From NCBI RefSeq assembly GCF_039614765.1, contig NZ_CP154879.1:2232001-2296000 (forward strand): a DNA stretch of 64,000 nt, written 5' to 3'. The position numbers were made by a program, and so were the translations under genes. This stretch comes from Castellaniella sp. MT123 (GTDB taxonomy: Bacteria; Pseudomonadota; Gammaproteobacteria; Burkholderiales; Burkholderiaceae_B). The notes beneath the pieces were generated by a model, which was not told the DNA's origin, made no database searches, and saw only the letters and a list, made by a program, of their open reading frames with translations. Positions 42,055 to 50,590 of the stretch are shown here, one piece after another (position 1 is the stretch's first letter; the number at the start of each line of letters is the position of its first letter).

Positions 42055-42969
42055 TCAGCCTTTCCGGCCTGCCAGGCAGACCCAGCCATCGCGGGCCGCC
42101 CAGACCGTCAGCGGCAGCCAGGGCGCATAGGCTTGCGCCACTTCGCCCGCCTGGCGCTCCAGGACACCAGACAGTACCAGCGAGCCGCCGGCCGCCACGC
42201 GGCCCGAGAGCATGGGTGCCAGCACCTTCAGGGGATTGGACAGGATATTGGCCACCACGACCTGGCTGGTGCCAGGCGGCAGATCATCCGGCAGGCAGGC
42301 CTGCACCTGTACCTGATTGACGGCGGCGTTCTGTGTCGTTGCCAGCACGGCCTGCTCGTCAATGTCCACACCCCGGGTAGGCCCGGCGCCCAGCAACCGG
42401 GCCGCGATGGCGAGGATGCCCGAGCCGCAGCCGTAATCCAGCACGGTCTGTCCGTCCGTCAGGTTGGCGGCGAGCCATTCCAGACACAGATGCGTGGTGG
42501 GATGGCTACCGGTGCCGAAGGCCAGCCCAGGGTCCAGTTCGATGCGCACGATGCCGTCCTGGCGGCCTGCCGCCGGCAGGTCGGTATCCTCGCGGTGCCA
42601 GCTGGGGATGATCCAGATCCGGTCGCCCACGGCAATGGGACCAAACTGGGACTGCGTCAGCCGTACCCAGTCCGCGTCAGGAACCTCGCGCAGCGCCCAG
42701 TCACCGGTGGCCGGTGATGGACCAGCCAGGCCATCGAGCGCCGCCAGCAGATGCGCCGGGTCGTCACCGTCGGCCAGCAGGGCCACCAGCCGGTTGTTCC
42801 GCCAGGCCAGGGTTTCGGGTTCCGTACCGGGTTCACCGAACAGGGCCTGTTCGCGATCCGTATCGCCGTCGGCGTCCTCGACGGATACCGACAGAGCCCC
42901 CGCTTCGAGCAGTGCGTCGGACCAGGCTTCCGCCTGATCTTCCGTGCAACTGAGCACCAATTCCCGCAT
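42055..42969 (-). CDS. prmA: Ribosomal protein L11 methyltransferase PrmA
   Basis: A 304-residue SAM-dependent enzyme that trimethylates L11. Motif I is VLDYGCGSGILAIAA, preceded by FGTGSHPTTHLCLEWL, and the NIL motif appears as VANILSNPL. A small N-terminal L11-recognition domain precedes the catalytic fold. It lies 9 nt after accC on the same strand, the accB-accC-prmA order. Confidence 0.96.
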   Translation of the reverse strand: MRELVLSCTEDQAEAWSDALLEAGALSVSVEDADGDTDREQALFGEPGTEPETLAWRNNRLVALLADGDDPAHLLAALDGLAGPSPATGDWALREVPDADWVRLTQSQFGPIAVGDRIWIIPSWHREDTDLPAAGRQDGIVRIELDPGLAFGTGSHPTTHLCLEWLAANLTDGQTVLDYGCGSGILAIAARLLGAGPTRGVDIDEQAVLATTQNAAVNQVQVQACLPDDLPPGTSQVVVANILSNPLKVLAPMLSGRVAAGGSLVLSGVLERQAGEVAQAYAPWLPLTVWAARDGWVCLAGRKG

Positions 42970-42978
42970 GTCGATGCC

Positions 42979-44325
42979 TCAGGTCCGCTGCGCGAGCTTG
43001 TGTTCGAGGTAATGGATGCTGGTGCCACCCTCGATGAAATTCGCATCCTGTAGCAATTCCCGATGCAGCGGGATGTTCGTGCGCACGCCCTCGACGATCA
43101 TTTCCGACAGGGCGATATCCATCCGCATCATGGCTTGGTGGCGGTCATCCCCATAGGTGATGAGCTTGGCCACCATCGAGTCGTAGTACGGCGGAACCGT
43201 GTAGCCCGTGAAGACGTGCGAATCCATCCGCACCCCGGGGCCGCCAGGCACGTGCCAGTTGGTGACCTTGCCGGGGCTGGGTGTGAATTTATACGGGTCT
43301 TCCGCATTGATGCGGCATTCGATCGCATGCCCGCGCAGATGGATGTCCCGCTGGCGCAGGGTGAATTTTTCCCCGGCGGCGATGCGGATCTGCTGCTGGA
43401 CCAGATCGATCCCCGTGATCATCTCGGTGATCGTGTGTTCGACCTGGATGCGGGTGTTCATCTCGATGAAGAAGAACTCGCCGTTCTCGTACAGGAACTC
43501 GAAGGTACCCGCGCCGCGATACCGCATCTGACAGCAGGCTTCGGCGCAGCGTTCGCCGATGCGCTCGATCAGCGCCCGCTCGACGCCGGGTGCCGGCGCT
43601 TCCTCGATGATCTTCTGGTGACGGCGCTGCATGGAGCAGTCGCGCTCGCCCAGCCACACGGCCTTGCCCTCGCCGTCGGCCAGGACCTGGATTTCGATGT
43701 GACGCGGGTTTTCCAGGAATTTTTCCAGGTAGACCTCGGGGTTGTTGAAGGCCACCTCGGCTTCCGTGCGCGTCATGGCCACGGCATTGATCAGCGCACT
43801 GGCTTCATAGACGACGCGCATGCCGCGCCCGCCGCCACCGCCCGCAGCCTTGATGATGACCGGATAGCCGACTTGCTCGGCGATCCGCTGGATTTCCGCC
43901 GAGTCGTCCGGCAGCGCACCGCCTGAGCCGGGCACCACCGGCACGCCGGCGGCGATCATCGCCTGCTTGGCGCAGACCTTGTCGCCCATGGTGCGGATGC
44001 TTTCGGGCCGGGGGCCGATGAACACGAAGCCGCTTTTTTCCACGCGATCGGCGAAATCGGCGTTTTCGGACAGAAAACCGTAACCCGGATGGATGGCCTC
44101 GGCATCGGTGACTTCAGCAGCCGAAATCAGGGCCGGCATGTTCAGGTAGCTGTCGCGCGGCGATGCGGGCCCGATGCACACGGATTCGTCGGCCAGACGC
44201 ACGTATTTGGCCTCGCGATCGGCCTCGGAATGGACCACCACCGTCTTGATGCCCATCTCACGGCAGGCGCGCTGTATCCGCAGGGCGATCTCCCCACGAT
44301 TGGCAATCAGTATCTTTTCGAACAT
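42979..44325 (-). CDS. accC: Biotin carboxylase subunit of acetyl-CoA carboxylase
   Basis: 448 residues with the full ATP-grasp set: [15 protein letters not shown], the glycine-rich loop [27 protein letters not shown] and [15 protein letters not shown]. It carboxylates the biotin carried by AccB, the first committed step of fatty-acid synthesis. The start lies 3 nt after accB, so the two are coupled. Confidence 0.98.
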
Positions 44326-44328
44326 GGC

Positions 44329-44772
44329 TCAGGCAATGATGAACAGGGGTTGGCCGTATTCCACCGGCTCGCCGTTTTCGACCAGGATTTCCTTGACCAC
44401 GCCGGACTTGTCAGCCTCGATCTCGTTGAGCAGTTTCATGGCCTCGATGATGCACAGGGGATCGCCTTCCTTGACGGTCTGGCCGACTTCGACGAAGGCC
44501 GGCGAATTGGGGTTCGGCGAACGGTAGAAGGTGCCGACCATCGGGGCCTTCACGGGGTGGCCCTGCGGCACGACCACAGGCGCCGGCGCGACGGCCGCGC
44601 CCGCGGCAGCCATAACCTGGGCGGGAGCGGGGGCCATCGGGGCGGGTGCAACCATGGGGGTCTGGGAGAACTTGACGATGCGGACCTTGCCTTCGCCTTC
44701 GGTGATCTCGAGTTCGGCGATTCCCGAATCGGCCACCAGGTCGATCAGCGTTTTCAGTTTTCTGAGATCCAT
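44329..44772 (-). CDS. accB: Biotin carboxyl carrier protein of acetyl-CoA carboxylase
   Basis: 147 residues. An N-terminal dimerisation segment ([23 protein letters not shown]) is followed by an Ala/Pro linker (residues ~40-70) and a biotinyl domain with Lys113 in [13 protein letters not shown] lies upstream of the chosen ATG, and the much longer open frame before it is not credible. A 268-nt leader region precedes it with an inverted repeat next to the ribosome binding site. In many relatives aroQ sits at this point, but it is absent here. Confidence 0.97.
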
Positions 44773-44790
44773 GAGAAATGATTCCTGTGT

Positions 44791-44923
44791 GCAGGCCCCC
44801 GGCGAGGTAGACCGTTCATGATTGAATTCGGGCGGCAGAAACAAATACGCCGTCGGTCCGTCCCCGGAAAACGGGGGGGAATCCACGACGGCCACATTCG
44901 CAGTGCAACGACCGGGGGCCTGC
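44791..44923 (-). promoter_or_regulatory. Possible long-range hairpin in the accB leader
   Basis: A perfect 12-bp inverted repeat (GCAGGCCCCCGG at 44791-44802, complement at 44912-44923), 109 nt apart. The start-proximal arm ends four bases from the accB AGGA ribosome binding site. If both arms are transcribed they could pair and affect translation. No known leader family was recognised. Confidence 0.35.
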
Positions 44924-45040
44924 GAAAAACACAGTCACGACCCGATCGCGTCAGCCCTTCAAAGCGCCTTTTTACGCTAAAACCGTCGATTTGTCCATTA
45001 AAACAGGGGCAGCCGACGTTTCAGACCTTTAAATTGAAAC

Positions 45041-45535
45041 TTAAAGTATCCTGGTCAGGCGTTGTTGCACGTCATCGGGCTTGAGCTCGCCGATCACGGT
45101 GGAATCCACTCGCCCCTGACGATCGAACAGGACGCTGAAGGGTAACCCACCGCCCTTGTTGCCGAGATCACGCATGAGAGGAATACCCTGGGTCCCGGTC
45201 AGCAGCAAAGGATAGGAAACTTTTATCCTGTCCAGGAAACGCAGGATATTGGCGCGCGTATCGATGGCCAGCCCCAGCACGACCAGGTCTGGATGCTGAT
45301 GATGCAACGATTCGAGCAACGGCATTTCCCGCACGCAGGGCGCACACCAGCTGGCCCAGAAATTCATCAGCACCGGACGGCCCACATACCCCGAAAGGGG
45401 CTGGCTGGCGCCCTGAAGATTGTCGAACGAACGGCCAAAGACTGGATTTGCCGGGAGCATCGACGCGAGGGCCCGATCCGGTCCGATGATCACGCCCGCC
45501 AGCGCCGCCACGCGCAGAAATGTCCGCCTGTCCAT
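45041..45535 (-). CDS. TlpA/ResA-like thiol:disulfide oxidoreductase
   Basis: 164 residues. The N-terminus (MDRRTFLRVAALAGVI) has a twin-arginine-like export signal. A thioredoxin fold follows with WCAPC (Cys64, Cys67) in FWASWCAPCVREMPLL, and the cis-proline region GLPFSVLFDRQG. It probably keeps periplasmic cysteines reduced, for instance for cytochrome c maturation; this is family knowledge. It sits between mpl and accB, where relatives have a similar gene. Confidence 0.88.
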   Translation of the reverse strand: MDRRTFLRVAALAGVIIGPDRALASMLPANPVFGRSFDNLQGASQPLSGYVGRPVLMNFWASWCAPCVREMPLLESLHHQHPDLVVLGLAIDTRANILRFLDRIKVSYPLLLTGTQGIPLMRDLGNKGGGLPFSVLFDRQGRVDSTVIGELKPDDVQQRLTRIL

Positions 45536-47112: not shown

Positions 47113-48993
47113 ATGCACGTTCTCTACGAAGACGCCGGCAAACTCAAGGCCGAAACCATTTTTTCCGAAGCCGACACCTCGATACAGGTCGAGTCCGCCT
47201 CCGGCAAGCGCAGCAAGATCAAGCGCAACAGTGTGCTGTTCACGTTCGACGCCCCCACCCCAGAGGCCCTGCTGCCGTCGGCCGAAGCGATGGCGGCCAC
47301 GCTGGAGCCCGACTTCCTGTGGGAATTCGCCCCACAAGAAGAGTTCGAGGCGGCCGCCCTGGCGCAGGACTACTTCGGCCATGCGCCGGATGCCGTGGAG
47401 AAGACCGCGTTGATCGTGGCCCTGTCGGCCGCTCCGGCCTACTTCCATCGGCGCGGCCGCGGCACATTCCGGCCCGCTCCGCCGGACATCTTGAAGGCCG
47501 CCCTGGCGGCGATCGAGAAGAAACGCCTGCAGGCGGAACAGCAGCAACAATGGACCGAATCGCTGGTGGCCGGCCAGTTGCCCGAAGCGCTCAGGGCTGC
47601 GGCGCCGACATTCCTGGACCATCCGGACAAGAACACCCTGGAATGGAAAGCCTTCGACGCCGCCGTGCAGCAGTTGGGCGAAAGCCCCGAAAGGCTGCTG
47701 CTGTCGCTGGGCGTCTGGCCCAACCAGCTGGCGATGATGCGCGCGCGTTTCCTGGCCGAGCATTTCCCGAAAGGCACGCAATGGCCTCCGGTCGCCGTGG
47801 AAGACTGGGGCGCCGACCTGCCGCAGGCCGACGTGGAAGCCTATTCCGTGGACGATTCCAGCACGATCGAGATCGACGACGCACTGTCGGTCACGCAGCC
47901 GGATGCCGAAACGATCCGGGTCGGCATCCATATCGCCGCGCCAGCCCTGGCGGCGCCACGCGGCAGCGCCTTCGACGACATGGCCCGCAGCCGCATGTCC
48001 ACTGTCTACATGCCGGGCGACAAGATCCCCATGCTGCCGCGCGAGCTGATCGCCGCCTTCTCGCTGGACGAGGGTCAATGGCGCCCGGCCCTGTCCCTGT
48101 ACGTGACCGGGCGGCTGGCGGACGGCGAGATCCTGGCCACGGAAACCCGGCTCGAGCGCATCCGCGTCACAGCCAACCTGCGCCATGACCGTCTGGGCGA
48201 CAGCATCACCGAAACGGCGCTGGCGGATCCGCAGGCCCCCGTACCCTACGCCCACTGGCTGCGCCCCCTGTGGCAGTTCGCCCAGCGGCTGTGCGCCATC
48301 CGCGACCGCGCCCGGGGAAAACCGGAAAACAACGACCGCATCGAATACAGCTTCGAACTGGACGGCCCGGCGGACGACCCGGACTCGGTCATCCGCCTGA
48401 TCCCGCGCCAGCGCAACGCACCGCTGGAGCGGCTGGTGGCCGAATACATGATCCTGACCAACACGCAGTGGGGCGCGCTGCTGGCGCGCCATGGCGTGCC
48501 TGGCATCTACCGCTCGCAGCAGATGGGCCGCACACGCATGTCGACCCAGGCGCTGCCGCATGAATCCATCGCGGTGTCGCAATACGTCTGGTCTACCTCG
48601 CCCCTGCGCCGCTACGTCGATCTGATCAATCAGGGGCAGATCATGGCCGCGGCGGAACACGGCGTTTCGGCGCGGCTGGTGGCGCCCTTCAAGCCGAAGG
48701 ATGCCGACCTCTATGCCCTGATCGGCGCATTCGATTCGCAATACACGCTGTGGGGCGAATTCCAGTCCTCGATGGAACGGTACTGGTGCATCCGCTGGCT
48801 GCAACAGCAAGGCATCAGGGAAGTCCGGGCCCACGTCCTGCGCGAAAATCTCGTGCGCCTGGCCTGCGCCCCATTGGTCACTCGCATCAACGGCCTGCCC
48901 GCGTTCGAGCGAGGCCAGGAAATCACCCTGGACATCCTGGGCTACGATGACCTGGGACTGGACATCGAGTGCCGCCTGCGCGAGGCTCCCTGA
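47113..48993 (+). CDS. RNB-domain exoribonuclease (RNase II/VacB family)
   Basis: 626 residues. The RNB catalytic domain begins near residue 250 with VDDSSTIEIDDALSV, whose aspartates bind magnesium. It continues with SRMSTVYMPGDKIPMLP and STSPLRRYVDLINQGQI. An N-terminal OB-like region is present, and the C-terminus is short compared with RNase R (no obvious long basic tail). It degrades RNA 3' to 5'. It follows mpl by 17 nt; the next gene starts 5 nt after its stop. Confidence 0.92.
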   Translation: MHVLYEDAGKLKAETIFSEADTSIQVESASGKRSKIKRNSVLFTFDAPTPEALLPSAEAMAATLEPDFLWEFAPQEEFEAAALAQDYFGHAPDAVEKTALIVALSAAPAYFHRRGRGTFRPAPPDILKAALAAIEKKRLQAEQQQQWTESLVAGQLPEALRAAAPTFLDHPDKNTLEWKAFDAAVQQLGESPERLLLSLGVWPNQLAMMRARFLAEHFPKGTQWPPVAVEDWGADLPQADVEAYSVDDSSTIEIDDALSVTQPDAETIRVGIHIAAPALAAPRGSAFDDMARSRMSTVYMPGDKIPMLPRELIAAFSLDEGQWRPALSLYVTGRLADGEILATETRLERIRVTANLRHDRLGDSITETALADPQAPVPYAHWLRPLWQFAQRLCAIRDRARGKPENNDRIEYSFELDGPADDPDSVIRLIPRQRNAPLERLVAEYMILTNTQWGALLARHGVPGIYRSQQMGRTRMSTQALPHESIAVSQYVWSTSPLRRYVDLINQGQIMAAAEHGVSARLVAPFKPKDADLYALIGAFDSQYTLWGEFQSSMERYWCIRWLQQQGIREVRAHVLRENLVRLACAPLVTRINGLPAFERGQEITLDILGYDDLGLDIECRLREAP

Positions 48994-48998
48994 ACGAC

Positions 48999-49889
48999 AT
49001 GACACAGCCGGCGAACCCCCTGTCGCTGCAACTGCTGGAAACCCGCCACGAAGGCCGCAGCCGCATGGCGCTCGCCCTGCTGCTGTCGCTCTGCGTCCAT
49101 GCCCTGCTGCTGGCCTGGCACGCCACCCATCCAACCCCGCAGCCTCAGGAATCCAGCCTGGAGATCACGCTGGTCAACAGCCGCAGCGACCAACCGCCAC
49201 TGCGCCCCCAGGCACTCGCGCAGCAAAACTTGGACGGCGGCGGTGAGCAGCCCAAGGGCATGGCGGCTTCGCCGCTGCCGCGCACCACCGAGGACAGCGC
49301 CGACGAAACCGTCCTGGAAGCACTGCGACGCCGTCAAGCCGAACTGGAGGCGGAACAGCGCCGCTTGCTCACGCAACTGGAGGCCCGGGACACAGTGCCT
49401 CAGGCCAGCCCGGCGCCGGAACTGCTGGGACAAAGCACCGAACCGGGCCAGGACGACCGCCAGCAGGACAGCCTGGTGCTCAGCGCCCGTATCGCCGCGC
49501 TGAAGGAACGGATCGAACGCTATAACGCCCAACCCAGGCAAACCTTTGTCGCACCGTCCACCCAGGCCGCCGACTACGCCGAATACGTCGAAGCCTGGCG
49601 CAAGCGCATCGAATTGATCGGCACCCAGCACTATCCGCCGGAAGCACGTGGGAAGATCTATGGCGACTTGCAACTGACGGTCTACATCCGCCGCGACGGG
49701 CAGCTGGATCACCTGGAATTCGACCATCCGTCCAGCCAGGCCATTCTGAACAGCGCGGCCCGCCGCATCATCGAACTGGCAGCCCCATTCCCGCCACTGC
49801 CGCCCAAAGTGGCCGAGCGCACCGACATTCTGGCGATCACCCGGACCTGGCATTTCACACACGCGGGGCTGGACACGGAGTCGCCATGA
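48999..49889 (+). CDS. Energy transducer TonB-family protein
   Basis: 296 residues. One N-terminal membrane anchor (LALLLSLCVHALLLAWHA) is followed by a charged, partly coiled-coil spacer (LRRRQAELEAEQRRLLTQLE) and a C-terminal TonB domain (HYPPEARGKIYGDLQLTVYIRRDGQLDHLEF). It lacks the long Pro-Lys/Pro-Glu repeat of classical TonB. No exbB or exbD is nearby, so it may serve a housekeeping envelope role. The start was trimmed ten codons to MTQPANP. Its stop overlaps mtgA. Confidence 0.85.
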   Translation: MTQPANPLSLQLLETRHEGRSRMALALLLSLCVHALLLAWHATHPTPQPQESSLEITLVNSRSDQPPLRPQALAQQNLDGGGEQPKGMAASPLPRTTEDSADETVLEALRRRQAELEAEQRRLLTQLEARDTVPQASPAPELLGQSTEPGQDDRQQDSLVLSARIAALKERIERYNAQPRQTFVAPSTQAADYAEYVEAWRKRIELIGTQHYPPEARGKIYGDLQLTVYIRRDGQLDHLEFDHPSSQAILNSAARRIIELAAPFPPLPPKVAERTDILAITRTWHFTHAGLDTESP

Positions 49890-50590
49890 GGCTGCGCTCG
49901 CTGGCTGCCTTTGCCGTGCTGCTGATCCTGTGCGCCGGGTTTCTGTACGAGATCGGCCTGTTCGGCATGGTGGTCTGGTTCAACTACCGCAACCCGGCCA
50001 ATACGCCGGTCATGCAGGCAACCCTGGCCTCTTTGCGAGCCCATGACCCAAACGCCCACCTGACCCACGAGTGGGTCCCTTATGCCGGCATCAGTGTCAA
50101 CCTGAAGCGCGCGGTGATCGCCTCCGAGGATTCCAGCTTCGTCGAGCATGACGGCGTGGAATGGGATTCCATCCGCAAGGCCTGGCGCTACAACCAGCGC
50201 CAGGAGGAACTGGGCCGGTCGCGCCGGCGCGGTGGCTCCACCATCACCCAACAACTGGCGAAAAATCTGTTCCTGTCGAATTCGCGCAATTACCTGCGCA
50301 AGGGCCAGGAACTGATCCTGACCTACATGATCGAAGGGGTCATGAGCAAACGACGGATCCTGGAGCTCTACCTGAACATCGCCCAGTGGGGCGAGTCCAC
50401 CTTTGGTGCACAGGCCGCCGCCCGGCACTACTTTCGCACGGACGCGGCGCGGCTGACCACCGGCCAGGCCGCCGAACTGGCCTCCATGCTGCCCAATCCA
50501 GCCTACTACGACCAGCACGGCGCCACCGCCTACCTGCGTTCCCACACCGCCACCGTGCTCGCCCGCATGCGGCTGGTCGAAGTGCCCTGA
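49886..50590 (+). CDS. mtgA: Monofunctional biosynthetic peptidoglycan transglycosylase
   Basis: 234 residues: an N-terminal membrane anchor (FAVLLILCAGFLYEIGLF) and a GT51 domain. The catalytic glutamate is in VIASEDSSFVEHDGVEW and the second motif is RRGGSTITQQLAKNLFLS. It polymerises lipid II into glycan strands. Start overlaps the TonB-like gene by four bases. In several related genomes aroE lies directly upstream of mtgA; it is missing here. Confidence 0.96.
   Translation: MRLRSLAAFAVLLILCAGFLYEIGLFGMVVWFNYRNPANTPVMQATLASLRAHDPNAHLTHEWVPYAGISVNLKRAVIASEDSSFVEHDGVEWDSIRKAWRYNQRQEELGRSRRRGGSTITQQLAKNLFLSNSRNYLRKGQELILTYMIEGVMSKRRILELYLNIAQWGESTFGAQAAARHYFRTDAARLTTGQAAELASMLPNPAYYDQHGATAYLRSHTATVLARMRLVEVP

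Follow-up and report, generated by a model that had tools for sequence, protein, structure and literature searches.

In xenologous (non-orthologous) displacement of an essential biosynthetic gene, the native gene is lost and a homologue of the same enzyme class, gained by horizontal transfer, remains as the only copy. Dehydroquinases are described as acting in both the shikimate and the quinate pathways (PMC4314829), and QuiC1/QsuB as having a two-domain layout (PMC7442255). Here we describe a locus of Castellaniella at which AroQ, and then AroE, of a catabolic-looking gene island very probably took over two steps of the shikimate pathway. The comparison of genomes given below shows that the native genes are missing, that single copies of foreign ancestry with conserved residues are present, and that pathway genes and intermediate states are retained; we infer that biosynthetic flux runs through the island enzymes, that the island is catabolic and in what order the changes took place.

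The window, that is the whole stretch of 64,000 nucleotides analysed, comes from a one-contig assembly (3.37 Mb) of a member of Castellaniella (Alcaligenaceae, Burkholderiales). Its reverse strand carries a TlpA/ResA-like thioredoxin-fold gene (45041..45535), accB for the biotin carboxyl carrier protein (44329..44772), accC for biotin carboxylase (42979..44325) and a prmA-like methyltransferase gene (42055..42969). AccB is assigned by profile (TIGR00531, 172.6 bits against a cut-off of 115.2), accC and prmA by eye from sequence and gene order. The thioredoxin-fold protein exceeds the cut-offs of Pfam AhpC-TSA and Redoxin, and in the profile scan no NCBIfam model rose above its cut-off. The six best named relatives of this protein all belong to Castellaniella (DR_1_1.49 at 100% identity, C. 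caeni, C. denitrificans, UBA6218, C. defragrans and FW021_bin.21), after which the next is 31% identical. In the MAG UBA6218, PrmA (L102 8605-9486) is 52% identical to that of the window, compared with 84% in its sister C. denitrificans, reflecting either a foreign gene or an assembly fault.

The preliminary description had seen these same four genes around a gap of 268 nt (44773..45040, no strand assigned), and coordinates, profiles and reading by eye agree with it. It had also proposed a clean deletion of aroQ without any trace. No dehydroquinase motif was seen by eye in the six-frame translation of 44773..45040, and tblastn with one canonical AroQ and the genome's own AroQ gave no match in the whole window at E 1e-4, which rules out that the gap is due to chance or to an overlooked frame. 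No dehydroquinase frame is left between accB and the thioredoxin-like gene, and the deletion is clean in this sense. The absence of any trace holds for the dehydroquinase frame, but not for the gap as a whole, because a promoter-like element of the native aroQ persists.

This element, TGGACA, 17 nt, TAAAAA (44969..45000, reverse strand), was read as a promoter by eye. It sits about 30 nt before aroQ in many relatives and is kept in all seven Castellaniella loci read, where it precedes accB. Allowing three errors and counting duplicates, it is matched in 55 of 100 accB-bearing loci; in L076 it is located elsewhere. We regard it as the putative operon promoter. A consensus sigma-70 scan found no promoter in 44700-45120, under a rule that demands T at the last position. 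The same scan found one terminator-like site in the gap, against 0.5 in shuffles. The accB leader contains a possible hairpin (GCCGTCG...CGACGGC, 44849..44892, reverse strand) followed by a T-rich stretch (44839-44846), an arrangement that resembles an attenuator. The inverted repeat is conserved at seven Castellaniella loci (the window, L064 and L100-L104), with a covariation term of +0.3, which amounts to conservation only, and two of the seven outer pairs fail in one sequence.

The expectation that aroQ generally precedes accB was borne out across the family. A comparison by eye of where PF01220 and AccB matches lie, made across 121 family genomes, showed aroQ adjoining accB on the upstream side in 108. 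Of the remaining 13, five are Castellaniella, four belong to genus g34 and four have no AroQ match; two of these last are complete (G023 and G058) and two partial (G051, 66%; G069, 83%). With the five Castellaniella set aside, the count is 108 of 116. The native aroQ place is empty in all seven species-level Castellaniella loci read. In these, the thioredoxin-like gene and accB are 271-298 nt apart, compared with 542-825 nt where aroQ is still in place among the family loci read; the spacings are approximate where an alignment ends before the gene end, and the accB loci of G122 and G125 fall outside the comparison. The absence of aroQ at accB is a derived loss, beyond ordinary variation. The preliminary description had allowed that relatives might lack aroQ here by ancestral arrangement. 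The family counts rule this out.

Genus g34 (G034, G066, G090 and G112) has aroQ away from accB and a gap of 182-183 nt between the thioredoxin-like gene and accB. This is a separate relocation, and the g34 copies in the AroQ tree (G034 and G112) are canonical. G023 and G058 (L074 and L075), two genomes of genus g24 with 1.6-1.7 Mb and 100% completeness, have no match to AroQ, type I dehydroquinase or the AroE family and are likely aromatic auxotrophs.

A genome-wide search for both kinds of dehydroquinase had been suggested at the outset. Run here, it gave no match to the type I profile (PF01487) and a single match to the type II profile (PF01220), at C1:2440453-2440866, in an island between rpsL and rpoC. 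Type I enzymes were found in none of the 31 genomes tested, all ten Castellaniella included, which rules out a type I stand-in. A single AroQ is present in nine of the ten Castellaniella. The other, G125, has a second copy at a contig end. In the AroQ tree this copy has a long branch of unsure placement, outside the canonical clade and close to further secondary copies. Of the remaining pathway genes, aroB is present in all ten and aroC in nine, the exception being a 78% complete genome.

The profiles and conserved residues of the genome's AroQ are those of a type II 3-dehydroquinate dehydratase. It scores 178.2 bits with TIGR01088 (cut-off 169.85), 206.8 with NF003805 (146) and 182 with PF01220 (23.3), and stays below the cut-offs of the sibling subfamilies NF003804 and NF003806. 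The variant clade to which it belongs and the canonical, accB-linked clade (26 and 70 rows) are identical at 28 positions with at most one exception per clade, including N12, R17, Y22, N74, H80, E98, H100, S102, R107 and R111. The residues that we take to be catalytic (Arg17, Tyr22, Asn74, His80, Glu98, His100, Arg107 and Arg111) are thus common to both. While variant and canonical enzymes share the same Pfam/NCBIfam family and the same conserved positions, the variant forms a separate clade without accB linkage. L14F and T81Y (THTS to THYS) distinguish the two clades throughout, and G131S does so almost throughout (67/70 against 26/26). The best solved relative of the genome's AroQ is the 3-dehydroquinate dehydratase PDB 6cv6 (250.2 bits, against 145.5 for the next). 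Its alignment carries the variant-clade motifs THYS and NMFGKRDP, and its sequence places it with the variant clade. In four secondary AroQ homologues (L091, L092, L093 and L096, from G103, G008, G098 and G100), NGPNANLYGLD replaces the RREP-type lid motif; these proteins, which do not have the usual lid arginine, may be non-dehydroquinases.

The preliminary description had proposed that this lineage handles two successive shikimate steps with genes elsewhere, and such genes are present. In the window's genome (G000), one AroQ and three AroE-family genes lie about 160-180 kb from the window loci, in an island of 28.3 kb between rpsL (2431026) and the end of rpoC (2459369). The AroE-family genes comprise one PRK12549-type dehydrogenase and two further AroE genes. 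QuiC is spread over two adjacent genes in reverse order, which match positions 292-470 (76.8 bits) and 4-268 (122.5 bits) of profile NF042435, both far below the cut-off of 1200, which applies to the whole protein. Transport is represented by a TRAP substrate-binding protein, by two membrane genes judged TRAP-like by eye, and by an ABC transporter of the branched-chain type, for the most part also named by eye. The island further contains a TPP enzyme, two family III CoA-transferases and, on the strength of a profile match, a citryl-CoA lyase. The GC content of the island (63.6%) equals that of the genome, as judged from the window (63.9%), so composition is no mark of foreignness.

As QuiC yields protocatechuate from 3-dehydroshikimate, the island looks like a putative quinate- or shikimate-type catabolic locus, with 3-dehydroshikimate dehydratase domains, an AroE-family dehydrogenase and AroQ all present. 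Compared with the QuiC1/QsuB systems of quinate and shikimate catabolism, it has both QuiC domains, a PRK12549-type AroE-family gene, AroQ and transporters, but its QuiC domains sit on two neighbouring genes in inverted order, and neither comes anywhere near the full-length cut-off. Our literature search found no report of Castellaniella growing on quinate or shikimate.

The rpsL-rpoC interval measures 27.6 kb in C. defragrans DSM 12141 (G029), 23.7 kb in G124 and 21.1 kb in G088. By eye, the content in G029 and G124 is like that of G000, G122 and G125 are partly so, and G088 differs, with no split QuiC seen among the long ORFs of its island. Overall, AroQ lies among catabolic-looking genes in seven of ten Castellaniella. 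At the other end of the range, the interval is 1,987 nt in C. caeni NBRC 101664 (G110), where the called genes are aroE and aroQ, and about 2,660 nt in C. denitrificans (G062) and G121, where an EamA-type transporter gene accompanies aroE and aroQ. In the whole genome of C. denitrificans G062, AroQ and the AroE family are each matched just once, and both matches fall within this reduced locus. In G122 (C3), the island side of rpsL continues into other catabolic-looking genes and no rpoC was met within the 98.7 kb read, so that either rpoC and rpsL are no longer linked or the island is of very great size. A role of rpoC-rpsL as a general insertion site of the family is unsupported: among 28 non-Castellaniella rpsL loci, the rpoC tail lies within 1.5 kb upstream in three (gap 402-710 nt) and not in the other 25.

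The ancestry of the Castellaniella AroQ sets it apart from the native gene. In a tree from an alignment of 140 columns only, a variant clade of 26 rows (SH-aLRT 97) is distinct from a canonical clade of 70 rows (SH-aLRT 95), and a smaller AroQ tree supports the two at 100/100 each. The canonical clade unites the accB-linked copies with the canonical copies of the order. The variant clade holds nine Castellaniella rows, 15 rows from eight other families of the order and two secondary g43 copies. Identity of the Castellaniella AroQ is 64-81% with the copies in the 15 scattered genomes and 45-53% with the listed canonical ones. The Castellaniella AroQ is thus a member of a separate, scattered clade and not a relocated native gene.

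The simplest history, a single acquisition followed by vertical descent, seems too simple, because a single Castellaniella AroQ clade is rejected (p-AU 0.0124). Trees of RpoC and of accC-mpl-rnb-trx agree in joining C. caeni to G000 (100/100 and 94/99) and C. denitrificans to C. defragrans (93/93 and 100/100). G088 is the earliest branch of the four-gene tree; in the RpoC tree it has a basal position together with G125. The RpoC tree covers the genomes other than G121 (a fragment), G122 and G027, and some rows of the four-gene tree are partial, such as the 48-aa mpl of C. defragrans. In the smaller AroQ tree, by contrast, C. caeni groups with C. denitrificans and G121 (94/94), and AroQ rejects both housekeeping pairings (p-AU 1.4e-7 and 8.5e-6, for groups chosen after earlier trees). 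This conflict suggests that the locus was swapped between species or refilled more than once. As a refinement of the island explanation, we therefore lean slightly towards separate entry of island-type and reduced-locus AroQ, or a swap of rpoC-rpsL alleles by flank recombination, which the conserved flanks rpoC and rpsL would ease. An EamA-type gene of C. denitrificans that is 89% identical to one in the C. defragrans island agrees with such exchange. The choice of groups after the fact and the shortness of the AroQ alignment nevertheless weigh against it; the trees could be misled if rates became uneven once the role changed, and AroE backs the pairing of C. caeni with C. denitrificans weakly (80/53).

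What does the island AroQ do? Two papers describe C. defragrans 65Phen growing in culture on acetate in mineral medium, one of them with no vitamins added (PMC4109377, PMC3490891), and the same sources provide deletion and transposon tools for this strain; the genome compared here is that of strain DSM 12141. In nine of the ten Castellaniella no dehydroquinase besides the island AroQ was detected. Together with the growth of 65Phen, this implies that the enzyme most likely feeds chorismate synthesis, for which aroB and aroC are kept. It seems quite improbable that the island AroQ is purely catabolic and that an unknown enzyme performs the biosynthetic step, or that the bacteria are aromatic auxotrophs. 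The catabolic-looking surroundings of AroQ in most Castellaniella would suit such a reading, and loss of this kind exists in the family, in G023 and G058. The retention of aroB and aroC and the growth of 65Phen without added vitamins speak against it. So do the reduced loci, since C. denitrificans, C. caeni and G121 lost the catabolic neighbours and kept aroQ and aroE at dN/dS well below 1. Between G062 and G121, dN/dS is 0.225 for aroQ and 0.179 for aroE; between G062 and G110 it is 0.192 for aroQ, the aroE of C. caeni being outside the set. These values are still higher than those of island copies in close species (0.015-0.088), which could also mean relaxed constraint.

The second missing gene is aroE, whose absence at 49886 had been pointed out in the preliminary description and is upheld by the wider comparison. 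In the window, a tonB-like gene (48969..49889) and an mtgA-like gene (49886..50590), both on the forward strand and named by eye, overlap by 4 nt where the native aroE would lie. Six named Castellaniella loci, including one from the window's own species, have tonB and mtgA no more than about 100 nt apart and no native aroE, whereas G088 retains native aroE between them; the mtgA loci of G122, G125 and (unless it is the same as FW021) G124 are outside this comparison. The 11 island AroE genes form one clade (100/99), and their grouping with the native AroE of G088 is rejected (p-AU 0.0017). The deep split of the AroE tree is weak (68/51), with two AroEs of g13, also of the family, likewise outside the main family clade, and a common clade uniting the Castellaniella island AroEs with the AroEs from two further island-bearing genomes is neither supported nor rejected (p-AU 0.428). 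As AroQ and AroE both fall outside the native clades, foreign genes most likely displaced both of the missing ones, and G088 represents an intermediate state in which aroQ is displaced and native aroE retained. That the native aroQ and aroE were merely moved to the rpoC-rpsL region by rearrangement, as the single AroQ of nine genomes and the side-by-side aroE and aroQ of C. caeni, C. denitrificans and G121 might suggest, is very improbable: both trees rule out plain translocation, and the greater identity of AroQ to the copies of scattered genomes than to canonical ones also speaks against it.

We therefore favour takeover by island genes, for which we propose the following course. In a Castellaniella ancestor, a catabolic gene island would have settled between rpoC and rpsL, bringing a type II dehydroquinase from a distinct, horizontally moving clade. 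Like the native enzyme, this AroQ should convert 3-dehydroquinate to 3-dehydroshikimate, which would have made the native aroQ dispensable. The native gene would then have been deleted upstream of accB, with its promoter-like element left before accBC. Outside the G088 lineage, a foreign island aroE would likewise have displaced the native aroE. In C. caeni, C. denitrificans and G121, the interval would finally have shrunk to little more than aroE and aroQ, and genes of catabolic origin would have become biosynthetic ones.

This case appears to be xenologous displacement, a known kind of event, in an unusually complete example: the native orthologue is absent from the place it holds in relatives, and the remaining copy is of different ancestry. 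It differs from the usual form in that the donor seems to be a catabolic island, in that two consecutive steps are displaced from one 5-kb neighbourhood, and in that an intermediate (G088), the full island and reduced forms can all still be found. Titles and the opening parts of abstracts, with subscription papers mostly beyond this scope, gave no description of aroQ/aroE displacement. The genomes offer a natural series by which a lateral feeding gene would become an essential biosynthetic one, from relatives with the native operon through G088, where aroQ alone is displaced, to G000 and C. defragrans, with both genes displaced and the island intact, and on to the reduced loci of C. denitrificans and C. 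caeni. For annotation, it should be borne in mind that 'aroQ' in Castellaniella genomes is no orthologue of the accB-linked aroQ.

Beyond Castellaniella, ten of the 15 other genomes with a variant AroQ have no further AroQ match, and none of the 15 has a type I enzyme. Two families show apparent parallels, each with a full and a reduced locus; aroB, aroC and QuiC pieces were named by profile in these, and TRAP, TetR, MFS and DsbA by eye. One is family f49. Between a DsbA-like gene and MFS-aroC, its genome G173 has aroE, TRAP-like genes, AroQ, an AroE-family gene and a split QuiC; G353 shares these flanks and, of the genes inside them, AroQ alone. The other is family f38, where the full locus lies beside aroB in G405 and consists of TetR- and TRAP-like genes, AroQ, an AroE-family gene and a QuiC N-domain. 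Within matching flanks in G284, AroQ is the single gene called. We tentatively suggest, at somewhat less than even chances, that rpoC-rpsL is an exchangeable locus, ranging from a 28-kb island to a 2-kb aroE-aroQ pair, in which aroQ has been obligatory in every allele since the native gene was lost, and that the same trap, in which arrival of a catabolic island is followed by loss of native aroQ and then by erosion of the island down to aroQ, arose independently in at least three Burkholderiales lineages: Castellaniella, f49 by aroC and f38 by aroB. If true, an essential housekeeping gene would anchor a mobile catabolic locus. Elsewhere in the order, two 1.3-Mb genomes have an AroQ with one in-frame TAA (G341:C1:9235-9663 and G370:C1:9235-9663), possibly a decaying gene.
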